64,000 nt of DNA from an uncultured Victivallales bacterium (GTDB lineage: Bacteria > Verrucomicrobiota > Lentisphaeria > Victivallales > UBA1829). Position numbers and translations under genes: made by a program. The stretch is taken from positions 62,001 to 126,000 of the forward strand of contig CALXSJ010000005.1 of the NCBI GenBank assembly GCA_944391115.1. Reading direction: 5' to 3'. Shown piece by piece: positions 27,837 through 37,520 of the stretch; the stretch's first letter is position 1, and each line of letters opens with the position of its first letter. Below the pieces are notes generated by a model. That model was not told where the DNA came from. It saw only the letters and a list, made by a program, of their open reading frames with translations, and did not search any database.

Positions 27837-28694
27837 ATGCCCGGACAACTATCCAAATCGGAATATCTTGCGGACAAACGTCTTCCCCTGCGCCTGATCA
27901 AGCGTGATCCGCAGGAGGAATACCAGCTTCACGAACATGATTTTTCGGAACTTGTCATTGTCTTCCGCGGACATGGCGAACATGTGATCTACGGCGAGCA
28001 TCGCACAATTGAAGCAGGCGATGTCTTCCTGATACACAACCGCACCGTGCACGGCTACGCCAATCTTCATGATCTGGCCCTTTACAATCTCATGTTCGAT
28101 CCGCGCGAACTTGCCAATCCGCTCCAGGCATTCTGCCGCTATCCCGCAATCGGTTCCCTCCTCCGGCTCGAACCGGAAGTGCGGAGCGGGAATATTCTCC
28201 GTCTTGAAAAAGACGAACTGGCCGAAGCCATGAAAATTCTCCGCTGCATTGAAACGGAACAGGAACGCGGCACGGAATATTTCCCGCTCGCCATGGCCGC
28301 GCATTTCATGCTCCTGACAGTATTTCTCGGCCGATGCATTGCGGCCCGCAGCCTCCCGCCGCGGCAAAATTCGTCCGCCGCGCTGTCCGAACTCATCAAC
28401 CGTCTGACGGAGCATTCGGAAAAGCGCTGGACACGTACGGAAATGGCTCGCTCGCTCATGGTTTCGGAAAGCACGCTCACCAGAATGTTCAAGCAATACA
28501 CCGGCTATGCACCGAACGAGTATCTGATCACTCTCCGCTTGAAAAAAGGCGCCATGCTTCTGCTCAACTCCGACCTGACAATCGGGGAAATCGCCGACAG
28601 AAGCGGATTTTCAGACAGCAATTATTTCTGCCGCCAGTTCAAAAAACATTTCCGGATGCCGCCGCAGAAATACCGCTCCCTCCGTCTTCAATGA
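27837..28694 (+). CDS. AraC-family regulator, RhaS/RhaR-like
   Basis: 285 residues. The N-terminal ~150 residues form a cupin sensor (LHEHDFSELVIVFRGHGEHV, AGDVFLIHNRTVHGYAN) as in RhaS and RhaR, with the histidines of an effector pocket. The C-terminal ~100 residues contain the two AraC helix-turn-helix units (WTRTEMARSLMVSESTLTRMF and TIGEIADRSGFSDSNYFCRQF) and end with the family's PPQKYRS. AAAAGGA precedes the ATG. Divergent placement beside rhaA makes it the probable rhamnose-responsive activator; this is context, not proof. A CCGCC-TCC-GGCGG hairpin at 28734-28746 may end its transcript. Confidence 0.92.
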   Translation: MPGQLSKSEYLADKRLPLRLIKRDPQEEYQLHEHDFSELVIVFRGHGEHVIYGEHRTIEAGDVFLIHNRTVHGYANLHDLALYNLMFDPRELANPLQAFCRYPAIGSLLRLEPEVRSGNILRLEKDELAEAMKILRCIETEQERGTEYFPLAMAAHFMLLTVFLGRCIAARSLPPRQNSSAALSELINRLTEHSEKRWTRTEMARSLMVSESTLTRMFKQYTGYAPNEYLITLRLKKGAMLLLNSDLTIGEIADRSGFSDSNYFCRQFKKHFRMPPQKYRSLRLQ

Positions 28695-28780
28695 ACTGCC
28701 CCGCTGCTGAGCACGCGCCTCGTATCGGGGATTCCGCCTCCGGCGGCCAATCTGCGCCAGAACCGATCAGTTGCTTTGCA

Positions 28781-29190
28781 ATTTTCTTATTACGGAAAAA
28801 TGCGTCGGCATTTTTCGCGGGGTCAAGGGCCTCCGGCCCTTGGCGTGATCCAGCGGCGAAACGCTGGGCGTGCGAAGCACGAAATCCCCCGCCCGGAGCG
28901 GTTCAAACCGCTCAGTGACGAGAACTTTTCCAGCGGAAAAGTTCGAGAGCTCCGGGCCTCCCCGTATCATTTTTCTTTTCGGACTTTCTTTCAATATATT
29001 TTTACCAGCGAGAGCTCCGGGCATTTTCCCGAGGCTGCACACTGTACCGGCGGCTCTCGAAGCTTCGCTTCTCGTCCTTTAGCGCTTGGAACCGCCGCCG
29101 GAGGAGATTTCGCCGCCGGCGACCAGCTTACGCAGCTGGACCGCGGCAGGACTGGAAGTCCTGCACGAATCATAATTTGCAAGGCAAATT
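28781..29190. repeat. Hairpin-array repeat unit, copy 1 (~410 bp)
   Basis: This unit is tiled with short perfect inverted repeats with tiny loops. They include AAAAATGC/GCATTTTT (28796-28815), CAAGGGCC/GGCCCTTG with loop TCC (28824-28842), CCAGCG/CGCTGG (28850-28867), CGTGC/GCACG with loop GAA (28869-28881), GAGCGGTT/AACCGCTC with loop CA (28896-28913) and GAACTTTTCC/GGAAAAGTTC with loop AGC (28922-28944). Further pairs are CCAGCT/AGCTGG (29123-29139), GCAGGACT/AGTCCTGC with loop GGA (29146-29164) and ATAATTTGC/GCAAATTAT with loop AAG (29072+100 to 29192). GCCCGGAG (28891-28898) can also pair with CTCCGGGC (28950-28957). No recognised RNA family or coding gene explains it. It could be a structured RNA or a mosaic of palindromic elements. 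Confidence 0.85.
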
Positions 29191-29601
29191 ATTTCTTTAT
29201 TACGGAAAAATGCGTCAGCATTTTTCGCGGGGTCAAGGGCCTCCGGCCCTTGGCGTGATCCAGCGGCGAAACGCTGGGCGCGCGAAGCACGAAATCCCCC
29301 CGCCCGGAGCGGTTCAAACCGCTCAGTGACGAGAACTTTTCCAGCGGAAAAGTTCGAGAGCTCCGGGCGTCCCTGTATCATTTTTCTTACCGGACTTTCT
29401 TCCAATATATTTTTAATAGCGAGAGCTCCGGGCATTTTCCCGAGGTTACACACTGTACCGGCGGCTCTCGAAGCTTCGCTTCTCGTCCTTTAGCGGTTGG
29501 AACCGCCGCCGGAGGAGATTTCGCCGCCGGCGACCAGCTTACGCAGCTGGACCGCGGCAGGACTGAGAGGAGAGCACGAAGCATAATTTGCAAGGCAAAT
29601 T
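29191..29601. repeat. Hairpin-array repeat unit, copy 2 (~411 bp, direct tandem)
   Basis: Head-to-tail copy of the unit at 28781, roughly 95% identical by eye. The first, second, third, fifth and sixth hairpins are kept; the first differs only in its loop (GTCA instead of GTCG). The fourth is broken by one substitution (CGCGC against GCACG) and the GCAGGACT hairpin near the end is lost, while the ATAATTTGC/GCAAATTAT pair at the end is intact. A TTGC-TTC-GCAA hairpin follows at about 29612-29622. A similar TTGC-TTT-GCAA precedes copy 1. The array lies between the convergent ends of the AraC gene and a lipoprotein gene, where no coding sequence is needed. Confidence 0.85.
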
Positions 29602-29658
29602 ATTTTTTTTGTTGCTTCGCAATTTTTTAAGGAACGGGGGAAAGGATTTCTCTGTCCA

Positions 29659-34679: not shown

Positions 34680-35283
34680 CTCTCCTTACCTTGCCTTCCT
34701 TTTCCTGTCCTAAAAAACGACTTATCAACATCATGCGCGAAGAAAAACCCGACACTGCATAAAACAGGAAAAAAGCCAGTAAAAAAACAAAAATTTTTTC
34801 ATCTTTTTTTTCGGATGCCCTCTTGACAGCCTCAATAAAAAACAGCCCCGTTTTTGAGGCTGAAAAAAGAGTGCCGCCCGTAAAATCCGGACGGCCTCCG
34901 CAAAAAAGTCAAGCCATTTTTCCGTTTTTTTCCGTCTTTTTTCCGAAGCATCCGGAAAAGCTGGAGTTTCCAACAATTTGCAGACTCAAGCCGGATACTT
35001 GTCAACAAGTTATCAACATTCCCCGCACCAGTCCCTGCGGACTATACCATGTAATCTGTACCGCTTTCGGAAATATGCAAGCTCATTCATGGAAATTCAG
35101 ACGTTTTTTATTTGCAAAAAAAATCATTTCCCCTCTTGACATTTGCAGAGGAGCTGAAAAGAGCTCCGGAAGTCCCTGAAAAGCCAGCCCGATGAAACGG
35201 AAGAAAGCGCAGCGTCCGCGGGAAAAAGGTCCCGGCCGGGAGTTTTTCCCGCGGAACAGGACCCGCGACAGAGACGATCGCAT
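34680..35283. other. AT-rich region upstream of dnaA with DnaA-box-like sites, candidate oriC
   Basis: No gene is seen here. Two TTATCAACA sites, one mismatch from the TTATCCACA DnaA box, lie at 34722-34730 and 35010-35018 in the same orientation, the second next to a looser TTGTCAACA at 34999-35007. The sequence between them has long A and T runs (about 34741-34820 and 34911-34945). A hairpin AGCCTCAA/TTGAGGCT with paired A/T tracts lies at 34828-34861. TTGACA on the minus strand at 35005-35000 could be a dnaA -35 box, but no good -10 follows. An origin beside dnaA is common in bacteria, but the low box count keeps this tentative. Confidence 0.45.
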
Positions 35284-37164
35284 TCAAAGCAGTTTCCCGG
35301 CAAGCGCGAGCCGCAGTTCCGGCAGATCCGTTTCGGCCAGAACATTCGGAATCATCACGGAAAGCGGATCCTTCGGAACCGGATTGCGGACCATGCCCTC
35401 CCAGGAATCCGGCGCATCGGTCAGCTTCAGCGCGGTGATCTTCTCAGAGAGAAGAGCGGCGATCATGGCAGGAACCGTCCCCTGCCCCCTGGCATGCATT
35501 TCAATTTGCGCGCCCGTCTGCGAGAGGAGTTCTGCCGCGCAGAGAATATCCTTTACTTTTCCGCTCAGAACGGGTTTTCCGAACATGAGTCCGAGCGAGG
35601 CGTAATGATAATCGAACTGATATTCATTGAAGAAGTTCCGCTCCAGTGGCTGATCGCATCCGGAGGGCATGCACTCGCCGATTCCGCGGACATCCAGGCC
35701 GTATACAGCGGCATCTTCCGGGAAAACAAGTTTTTCCAGTTCATCCTGCGCATCCAGATGCGGGATGTAAAGAATGACTTTCCCGCCGGCCGGCAGATGA
35801 TAAAACGCCTGATCTGCGGATTTCAGCTTGAGCACGCACATAAGACGGCCGTCCGGCTCCGTTTCCAGTCCGAAACGGGAATAGACGGCCGGACCTTCCG
35901 TGCGGAAGCGCAGGATCCGGAAATGAGGCGTGAAGGGATCGTCAAGGCTGAGCAGACGCCGCAGGATTGCGCAGAGCTCCTCTTTTCCGTGCGTTTTCCG
36001 CGCACCTGCCAGCGCGGAGGCCTTTTCCGCGGCAAAAGCGCGGATGTATTTGTTCACGGCGAGGTTCCGGACCTGTCCGCCCGGAGCCGCGCTGAGCTCC
36101 TGTTCGGAAGAAAGCGGAATATCGGCAGGCTCCTCCGGGGAAACGCCGACTTTTGCCGTATCATTGAAGAGCGAATACATGGCCTCGCGGTTGGTCTTTG
36201 AATATCCGTGATCGCCGGGGCCGATGGTCAGACGGACGGCATCCTCCGCTCCGAGCAGGCGGTAGACACGGCGGACCTCTTCATAAGTTTCCTTTGTTCC
36301 GCGCGGATCGAAAAAGTCATTGCTCTGCCCGAGAATCACCAGCGGGCGCGGAGCCCTGGCAATCAGGAAATCGCCCATTTCAAGTCCGGCGGCGAAGGTG
36401 CCCGGCGGCATCTGCTCCGAATCGGCGGGCAGTTCGTTTTCCACATTATGCAGCCAGGTCGTGATATAGCAGCTGGGCGCGGCCATGGTCAGGCGGTCTT
36501 CAAGCGCGTTGACAAAGGTTGTCATGGTGCCGCCGCCGGAATTCCCCGTCACTCCGACGCGGGTTGCATCGACCTCGGGGCGGCTCAGGAGATAATCCAG
36601 TCCGCGGATCGCATCCCAGGCCCGCCATGCCCCCATGGTCTCTCCGGTCAGAAGAAGCTGCCTGCCGATGATATTGTGCTCCGTGCAGCAGTTGCCGGAA
36701 AAGCCGGGAATGTCAAGGAACTGCAGACGTTCGCCCTGACTGACGGGATCAACGGCAAGCACGGCATATCCTTTCATGGCTAGCGCGCGCTGACAGGTCT
36801 GGTAGATCTCCGAGGCCTTTCCATTCTGGGAATGACCGCACAGAAAGAGCACCGCGGGAACCTTCCCCTCCGCTTTCGGAAGATAAAGACTGGCGGTCAC
36901 GGGATATTCCGGACGGCTGTGATAAATGATCTTGTGCATGACAAAGGAGCCGAAGTCAATGGATCCGGTTTCATATGCGTCAAGCGGCGTTTTTTCTGCG
37001 GGAAATGGAAACAGCGCGGCAATTTTTGTCCGGACCTCCGCGACGTAGCGTTCCGCGTCCTCCCGGGTATGCAAAGCGTCAAGGCGCGCTTTCCTTGCGG
37101 CGAAATTCTCTCTGACAAGATCCAGATAATAATCCTGAACCGCGGTTCCGAACAATGGCGTCAT
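35284..37164 (-). CDS. Alpha/beta-hydrolase esterase, dienelactone-hydrolase/acetyl-xylan-esterase type
   Basis: 626 residues from the ATG at 37164, preferred because AAGGAGAAG lies nine bases before it; an upstream ATG at 37188 has no ribosome site. No signal peptide. The first half is an alpha/beta hydrolase: VPAVLFLCGHSQNGK (oxyanion region), GYAVLAVDPVSQGER, nucleophile elbow GVTGNSGGGTM, Asp in GQSNDFFDPRG and His in GPGDHGYS. The second half (~390-626) resembles a degenerate second hydrolase-like domain (GKVILYIPHLDAQDE, VYGLDVRGIGE, RGQGTVPAM) as in two-domain members of the family. Such proteins often deacetylate or demethylate plant glycan fragments. The gene is monocistronic, with a LacI-type operator in its promoter. 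Confidence 0.88.
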   Translation of the reverse strand: MTPLFGTAVQDYYLDLVRENFAARKARLDALHTREDAERYVAEVRTKIAALFPFPAEKTPLDAYETGSIDFGSFVMHKIIYHSRPEYPVTASLYLPKAEGKVPAVLFLCGHSQNGKASEIYQTCQRALAMKGYAVLAVDPVSQGERLQFLDIPGFSGNCCTEHNIIGRQLLLTGETMGAWRAWDAIRGLDYLLSRPEVDATRVGVTGNSGGGTMTTFVNALEDRLTMAAPSCYITTWLHNVENELPADSEQMPPGTFAAGLEMGDFLIARAPRPLVILGQSNDFFDPRGTKETYEEVRRVYRLLGAEDAVRLTIGPGDHGYSKTNREAMYSLFNDTAKVGVSPEEPADIPLSSEQELSAAPGGQVRNLAVNKYIRAFAAEKASALAGARKTHGKEELCAILRRLLSLDDPFTPHFRILRFRTEGPAVYSRFGLETEPDGRLMCVLKLKSADQAFYHLPAGGKVILYIPHLDAQDELEKLVFPEDAAVYGLDVRGIGECMPSGCDQPLERNFFNEYQFDYHYASLGLMFGKPVLSGKVKDILCAAELLSQTGAQIEMHARGQGTVPAMIAALLSEKITALKLTDAPDSWEGMVRNPVPKDPLSVMIPNVLAETDLPELRLALAGKLL

Positions 37165-37231
37165 TTTTTTCTTCTCCTTATCAAGCATAAATCAGCCGGC
37201 AGAATCATGCGATCTCATGATCTCTCGCTCT

Positions 37232-37260
37232 ACTATATCTGCCAACGTTGGCAAAATCAA
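37232..37260 (-). promoter_or_regulatory. Promoter of the esterase gene, overlapped by a LacI-type operator
   Basis: On the minus strand TTGATT (37260-37255), a 17-base spacer and TATAGT (37237-37232), 68 bases before the esterase ATG. The spacer is almost filled by the perfect 14-bp palindrome at 37240-37253. Confidence 0.6.
37240..37253. promoter_or_regulatory. LacI/GalR-family operator TGCCAACGTTGGCA
   Basis: A perfect 14-bp palindrome with the central CG step typical of LacI/GalR-family operators. It lies between the -35 and -10 boxes, so bound repressor would block polymerase. No full LacI-family gene (with LacI helix-turn-helix) is in the window, so the repressor is encoded elsewhere. 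Confidence 0.7.
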
Positions 37261-37520
37261 GCGGAGGCAGATCAAAAATCTGCAAGAAATCCATCATGAA
37301 AAAGACACAGGAAATCTTTGCCTGCAGTGCTTTGAAAAGTCCGGATCATTCGTAAGCGGGAAAAGAAAGGAGAGGCGGAATGGAAACAATCATTTGTGAA
37401 ATATTTCACATCCAATTCAAAACGCATTTTCTCTTTTGCACAAATCATGCTTCCCCGGGGGATTGTTCCATGAATCTCCCGGGAAGGGAAAGAATCTTTC
37501 CGGAAGTTGAAATTCTCCGC

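Follow-up and report, generated by a model that had tools for sequence, protein, structure and literature searches.

The question raised by this locus is what kind of element consists largely of short perfect hairpins, repeated head to tail directly behind a regulator gene. In the window (the whole stretch of 64,000 nucleotides that was analysed), 16 non-overlapping perfect hairpins with arms of at least 6 and loops of 2-6 bases cover 305 of the 821 bases at 28781-29601, compared with a mean of 1.13 and a maximum of 6 in dinucleotide shuffles of that segment (n=500) and 7 in the best other segment of the 64 kb. The structure described in the sequence-only reading was recovered: two head-to-tail copies are spaced at 410/411 and are 94-96% identical, unit 1 contains nine perfect hairpins whose arms measure 6-10 bp, where a chain of about nine had been reported, and the difference between the copies in the first hairpin sits in the loop (GTCG/GTCA). 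Hairpins with 5-bp arms, at 28869-28881 and GAAGC/GCTTC, were also read from the sequence of unit 1. Folding of one unit, which had been proposed as a check, gave -178.7 kcal/mol, with a z of -5.75 relative to 100 shuffles. A search of the 64 kb against Rfam at gathering cut-offs returned no matches, which agrees with the earlier statement that this is not a known RNA, and a tRNA was rejected as an explanation, none being found. A second hairpin-rich stretch, reaching a maximum of 7 perfect hairpins per 821 bp (at 35101), was observed at 35001-37500, inside or near coding sequence.

The limits first drawn around the array (28781-29601) are slightly short of the composite, which extends from the AraC stop codon at 28692 to about 29630 (Table 1). 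The composite begins CAA|TGA, the bar marking the junction, and this TGA is the stop of the AraC-type gene; its right part is a small T-tailed hairpin near 29630. The hairpin motif TTGC-TTT-GCAA also flanks the array at C5:131878, and TTGC-TTC-GCAA likewise closes the array of genus mate G001, which at this locus consists of two 410-bp units and one of ~187 bp. In G002, the AraC ortholog ends in TAG and runs directly into its convergent neighbour, element-free.

Table 1. Parts of the composite and the preceding gene, in window coordinates
Feature	Position	Strand	Basis
AraC-type regulator gene	27837..28694	+	Pfam HTH_18/AraC matches; G002 ortholog ends without element
AraC stop codon TGA, first codon of composite	28692-28694	+	
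150-type left-end remnant (TGAACTGCCCC... then TATCGGGGATTCCGCCTCCGGCGGCC), anchored at stop codon	28692..28770	+	left-end pattern AA|TGA, guide base C
Small hairpin TTGC-TTT-GCAA and T-run ahead of unit 1	28771..28790	+	read from sequence
Unit 1 of hairpin chain (410-type)	28791..29200	+	
Hairpin A (head), unit 1	28795..28816	+	pair changed on both sides in 10 sequences
Hairpin B, unit 1	28824..28842	+	pair changed on both sides in 11 sequences
Hairpin C, unit 1	28850..28867	+	
Hairpin D, unit 1	28869..28881	+	read from sequence; two pairs with both-side changes
Hairpin E, unit 1	28896..28913	+	
Hairpin F, unit 1	28922..28944	+	
Core common to 150-type element (hairpins TCGCC.., CCAGCT.., GCAGGACT..)	29110..29164	+	alignment: matches 323-392 vs 150-type
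Hairpin K and T-run, unit 1 end	29172..29196	+	
Unit 2 of hairpin chain	29201..29610	+	
Terminal small hairpin TTGC-TTC-GCAA, T-run, AA; about right edge of composite	29611..29630	+	read from sequence

The copy-number search suggested for the unit yielded matches at 93 places in the window's own draft genome (G000; 3.66 Mb, 44 contigs). Matches to the 410-bp unit were present in 10 of the 41 genomes searched, strong in the same genus, which includes the sister genomes G001 and G003, and weak in genus g10 and three other genera. A compact element of 150 bp shares the core of the 410-bp unit (the CCAGCT and GCAGGACT hairpins) and has 53 matches in G000, about 20 of which are 95-100% identical. 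Together, the 410 and 150 matches merge into 70 clusters, 66 of them on a single strand and 4 with mixed strands. The family is modular: units occur in versions of ~107, ~187, and ~410 bp, and at hybrid loci a ~187-bp unit has been added into the core of a 150-type element, as at locus C9, where G003 has the 150-type alone and G000 and G001 have the hybrid. At G000:C15:53970-56861, compared with G001:C24, two oppositely oriented arrays have exchanged flanks around an intervening segment of about 2 kb, which is read as an inversion of that length; the corresponding junction in G003 has a single hairpin. Many contigs of G000, G001, and G003 terminate within these elements, so the drafts probably understate the length of the arrays. 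Two other repeated sequences were observed beside the clusters. A dispersed short repeat (GGCAAACCGTGTTTGCCGGGTGCAGGTGTCTCACACC...), which recurs in G001 and G003, adjoins an array at G000:C27:19626-19970 and G001:C1:118330-118507 (L203), and a common sequence of ~60 bp (AGGTATATAAATAGGTTTC... / ...CCCCGTAGTCCCCACTT) flanks the two hairpin clusters at G000:C17:61894 and C37:14529.

Insertion sites were defined most clearly for the 150-bp form, which has a hairpin close to each end. When the flanks of 14 recent 150-type sites were joined, 7 matched G001 across the join. Comparison of filled with empty sites in G001 and G003 placed the insertion at AA|TRA (AA|TRAA) without clear target duplication, apart from a conceivable 2-bp duplication of AA; on the strand presumed to be moved, the element lies 3' of the fixed short target TTYA. 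The left end of the element supplies TAA or TGA and the old codon stands after the right end. Two of the seven empty sites in G001 differ in stop codon from the filled site (L072, TGA/TAA; L069, TAG/TAA), and divergence of the G001 flank was seen at L065. An IS630-like terminal TA duplication was rejected as a misfit with the TGA sites. At 16 of the 28 host-flanked left ends (14 of 26 scripted, plus the two host sites C6:38450 and C17:1), a reading frame open for at least 80 codons terminates at the element's first codon, compared with 11 of the 52 AATRAA sites in the window (p 0.0025); this excess is not taken as a preference for stop codons over and above the AATRAA motif, since it could equally come from selection against insertions within genes. 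For the 410-type, one unit was found at a TAA stop codon (C1:80365, relative to a paralogous empty site in G001), and some junctions read AA|TRACGG (C15, L327). The first units of 410-type arrays mostly start AA|ACGG, not AA|TRA, and their right edge is not fixed. Oriented arrays, a fixed site, and no clear duplication would also suit a tyrosine or serine recombinase acting on attC-like arrays, an IS110 element, or a retroelement, but IS110 was found in neither G000 nor G003, and reverse transcriptase was found in neither G001 nor G003 and only once in G000; we regard this group of explanations as the least probable of those considered.

Near the right end of the 150-type element, the terminal hairpin is bordered by T[T/C]A, whose variable base is the putative guide. 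Tabulated against the following codon, this base gave T-TAA 29, T-TGA 3, C-TAA 9, C-TGA 13, and two TCA, some of the right flanks in this table being the start of the next element; the host flanks of G000 alone gave T-TAA 13, T-TGA 1, C-TAA 5, C-TGA 11, and two TCA. Among near-identical recent copies with host flanks, T was accompanied by TAA in 8 of 8 cases and C by TGA in 11 of 13. At the left end, the base beside the hairpin was set against the codon with which the element itself begins (T-TAA 35, T-TGA 1, C-TAA 12, C-TGA 21), and the left end at 28692-28770 of the window carries the C-TGA pair. Rows outside the guide tables include C13:11129 (T, TAA), C4:206331 (T, GGA), C30:22701 (T, no TRA), and C1:156089. 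The p values for guide and codon (1.5e-4 by Fisher's test for the full right-end table, 8e-4 for the G000 host flanks, and 2.8e-8) overstate independence, above all at the left end, because the copies are related by descent. Read on the lower strand, A or G faces T or C; A-T and G-C are common, G-T wobble is tolerated, and the A-C mismatch is rare, as guide-target pairing would predict. On this sequence pattern, the guide 5' of the hairpin in the 150-bp form would pair with the target, as expected of IS200/IS605 elements, whose guide lies just 5' of the hairpin foot according to the accessible part of PMC6006769.

Relatives that carry a transposase were found in G020, a genome of the same family as G000; its two elements, each about 560 bp long, encode an intact TnpA of 146 aa and have a left end of the form TGAACTACCYCGGTGC..GGTATCGG. 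The right end of one of them, L147, reads hairpin-GGTATTAAACCCAAAAGAA|TAAA, recorded also as hairpin-GGTATTAAACC..GAA|TAAA, and the other copy has a shortened version of this right end; a looser likeness to it was seen at L150. The left end of the 150-type was present at 5 of the 8 inspected tnpA loci of this group, as AA|TGAACTACC-hairpin-GGTATC at L147, L462, and L463 and in similar form at L454 (ATA|ATGAACTACC...) and L150 (GA|TGAACTACC...), and was absent at L453, L457, and L461. L454, L462, and L463 represent three genera besides G020, and in them the left end adjoins tnpA. When 8 loci with other Y1 matches were scanned for the pattern, a possible left end turned up at one of them, L146. 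At this G004 locus (L146, 1355), the AGAATAAATTACCG motif was observed near a fragment of another Y1 transposase and is possibly a related end.

The TnpA of the relatives was assigned to IS200/IS605 by both Pfam and NCBIfam, and its nearest solved structures are the Y1 transposases 2fyx and 2xm3/2xma, the latter two of which we take to be ISDra2 TnpA. It scored 118.7 bits for IS200 and reached 26.7 for REP_Tyr, whose cut-off is 80. A search of 137 genomes of the order at E 1e-25 detected the matching TnpA subfamily in 5, which do not include G000, G001, or G003. No intact Y1 transposase was found in G003, in G019, or in the draft of G000, where the sole find was a broken gene of another IS200 group; an intact gene may have dropped out of the draft, as multi-copy IS often do. 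REP/BIME-like repeats moved by a RAYT transposase would share Y1 chemistry with IS200/IS605 elements and would likewise appear as high-copy extragenic palindromes adjoining genes. The REP_Tyr score below cut-off, the single rather than alternating orientation of nearly all clusters, and the lack of an intact Y1 gene in G000 speak against such repeats, and we consider them very unlikely.

Conservation of the stems was assessed in 11 hairpins of 29 units from G000, G001, and G003. In this set, 96.4% of the cells pair, dropping to 34-44% in slid controls, and 13 pairs have changed on both sides, in 44 cells compared with a shuffled mean of 13.3. Equal mutation of arms and loops, which the sequence-only reading had named as evidence against itself, was not what was found: arms vary by 4.8% and loops by 29% (percentage of letters per column, first part of the unit alignment), alongside the 13 compensated pairs. 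Pair 8/23 is A-T in 19 units and G-C in 10, with zero intermediates. Departures of the G-U and A-C types in the arms number about 17 and 13 in a tally of per-pair counts that leaves out the loop-closing pair 115/118 and the poorly aligned helix K; because the two are about equal, they favour neither selection in RNA nor selection in DNA. Units of G001 share changes that G000 units lack, so the arrays seem to evolve in concert.

These observations bear on two further explanations. A structured RNA, in which the chain would form a transcribed 3' UTR serving as terminator, mRNA stabiliser, or regulator, with its stems selected in RNA and its copies spreading by duplication or recombination, would suit the stable fold, the paired changes, the position behind stop codons, and the likeness of T-tailed hairpin K to an intrinsic terminator; set against these are the lack of a G-U excess over A-C, the lack of an Rfam match, the free shuffling of modules, and the antisense contexts of many 410-type arrays, and we judge it unlikely. 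Quasi-palindrome correction at replication forks, by which one arm templates repair of the other in functionless hairpins, is a possible if somewhat doubtful explanation. It would produce double changes with few intermediates, as at pair 8/23, and conversion-like sharing of changes among the units of one array, but it leaves the conserved guide bases, the ends, and the stem sequence common to different loci unexplained. It concerns the inner hairpins only and is compatible with a mobile element. The stems are kept by paired changes, for which a role in DNA, a role in RNA, or template-switch copying may each account.

The units are best explained, and in our judgement probably, as a lineage-specific, modular family of short non-autonomous IS200/IS605 elements (single-strand, Y1-HUH) resembling the palindrome-associated transposable elements (PATEs) of haloarchaea. 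Dispersal, empty sites, the target rule, insertion without clear duplication, guide/target covariation, and transposase-bearing relatives were all observed for the 150-bp form. The 410-bp unit is placed in the family by its common core, dispersal, and head-to-tail junctions; this is a weaker case, because of the AA|ACGG starts and the unfixed right edge, and the assignment of this unit taken alone is held with less confidence than that of the family. We infer that the 410-bp unit was moved by this machinery as well and that TnpA acts in trans, and any account of what keeps the inner hairpins is equally presumptive. On the lower strand, TnpA supplied in trans would bind the two near-terminal hairpins of the element, the short guide 5' of each hairpin would pair with TTYA, and the element would be joined 3' of TTYA, that is, at upper-strand AA|TRAA, often the stop codon of a gene. 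With its left end the element would bring in a TRA codon, and the old one would remain at its right, so that the encoded protein does not change and each end again offers an AA|TRA site. These regenerated sites, homologous exchange through the common core, and tandem duplication could then build head-to-tail arrays. The earlier statement that no transposon explains the array is wrong for the family, which is dispersed and recently mobile and whose ends resemble those of IS200-type elements found in relatives; the alternatives offered with it, a nested mosaic of small palindromic elements and a hairpin chain acting in DNA (recombination), came close.

A more specific version is offered tentatively, as somewhat less than an even chance. 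The family may be specialised for stop codons, a one-base change of the guide having switched it between TAA and TGA; its own stop would keep the protein intact, the target would be rebuilt at both ends so that chains could grow indefinitely, and the inner hairpins would be kept for a single-stranded circular intermediate. The results link long hairpin chains behind genes to single-strand transposition. They also provide a natural experiment in guide-directed target choice, in which two near-identical subfamilies, one guide base (and one extra end base) apart, occur at different stop codons. Arrays of divergent elements can accumulate behind genes and rearrange the chromosome, as seen in the array-length differences and the 2-kb inversion between sister genomes. 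In the open-access literature searched, neither this family nor a targeting of stop codons by IS200/IS605 elements was described; most subscription papers lay outside that scope.

Among known systems, REP/BIME repeats with TnpA-REP also form many extragenic hairpins and use Y1 chemistry but differ in orientation, ends, and transposase group, as far as the accessible parts of PMC6006769 and PMC2817692 describe them. The IS605-derived stem loops behind lipoprotein genes on Borrelia plasmids likewise place an IS605 end hairpin at a stop codon or immediately after it, and show compensatory changes; they are single end hairpins at few loci, and the available portion of PMC2775950 does not describe arrays or guide/stop-codon covariation. 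IS608 and ISDra2 (IS200/IS605) have subterminal hairpins, a tetranucleotide target at the left end, a similar tetranucleotide closing the right end, and a guide 5' of the hairpin foot; unlike them, as portrayed in the accessible sections of PMC6006769 and PMC7290912, the family here is gene-less, has a multi-hairpin interior, and carries a guide base that varies naturally between subfamilies along with the stop codon. The PATEs of Haloquadratum walsbyi share the lack of a transposase, near-end palindromes, IS605-type ends, and insertion without target duplication, and the part of PMC3119063 at hand describes strain-specific or recent insertions of PATEs in a genome whose IS200-type genes are mostly pseudogenes, a parallel to the recent insertions and broken IS200 gene of G000; a PATE does not need an intact transposase in its own genome. 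In contrast to those haloarchaeal PATEs, as characterised in the same portion of PMC3119063, the present family is bacterial, has about eleven hairpins per 410-bp unit, forms head-to-tail arrays, and has AA|TRAA targets at stop codons with TAA and TGA guide variants. New here is a transposase-free family with an unusually long hairpin chain, stop-codon targets, and a naturally varied guide.
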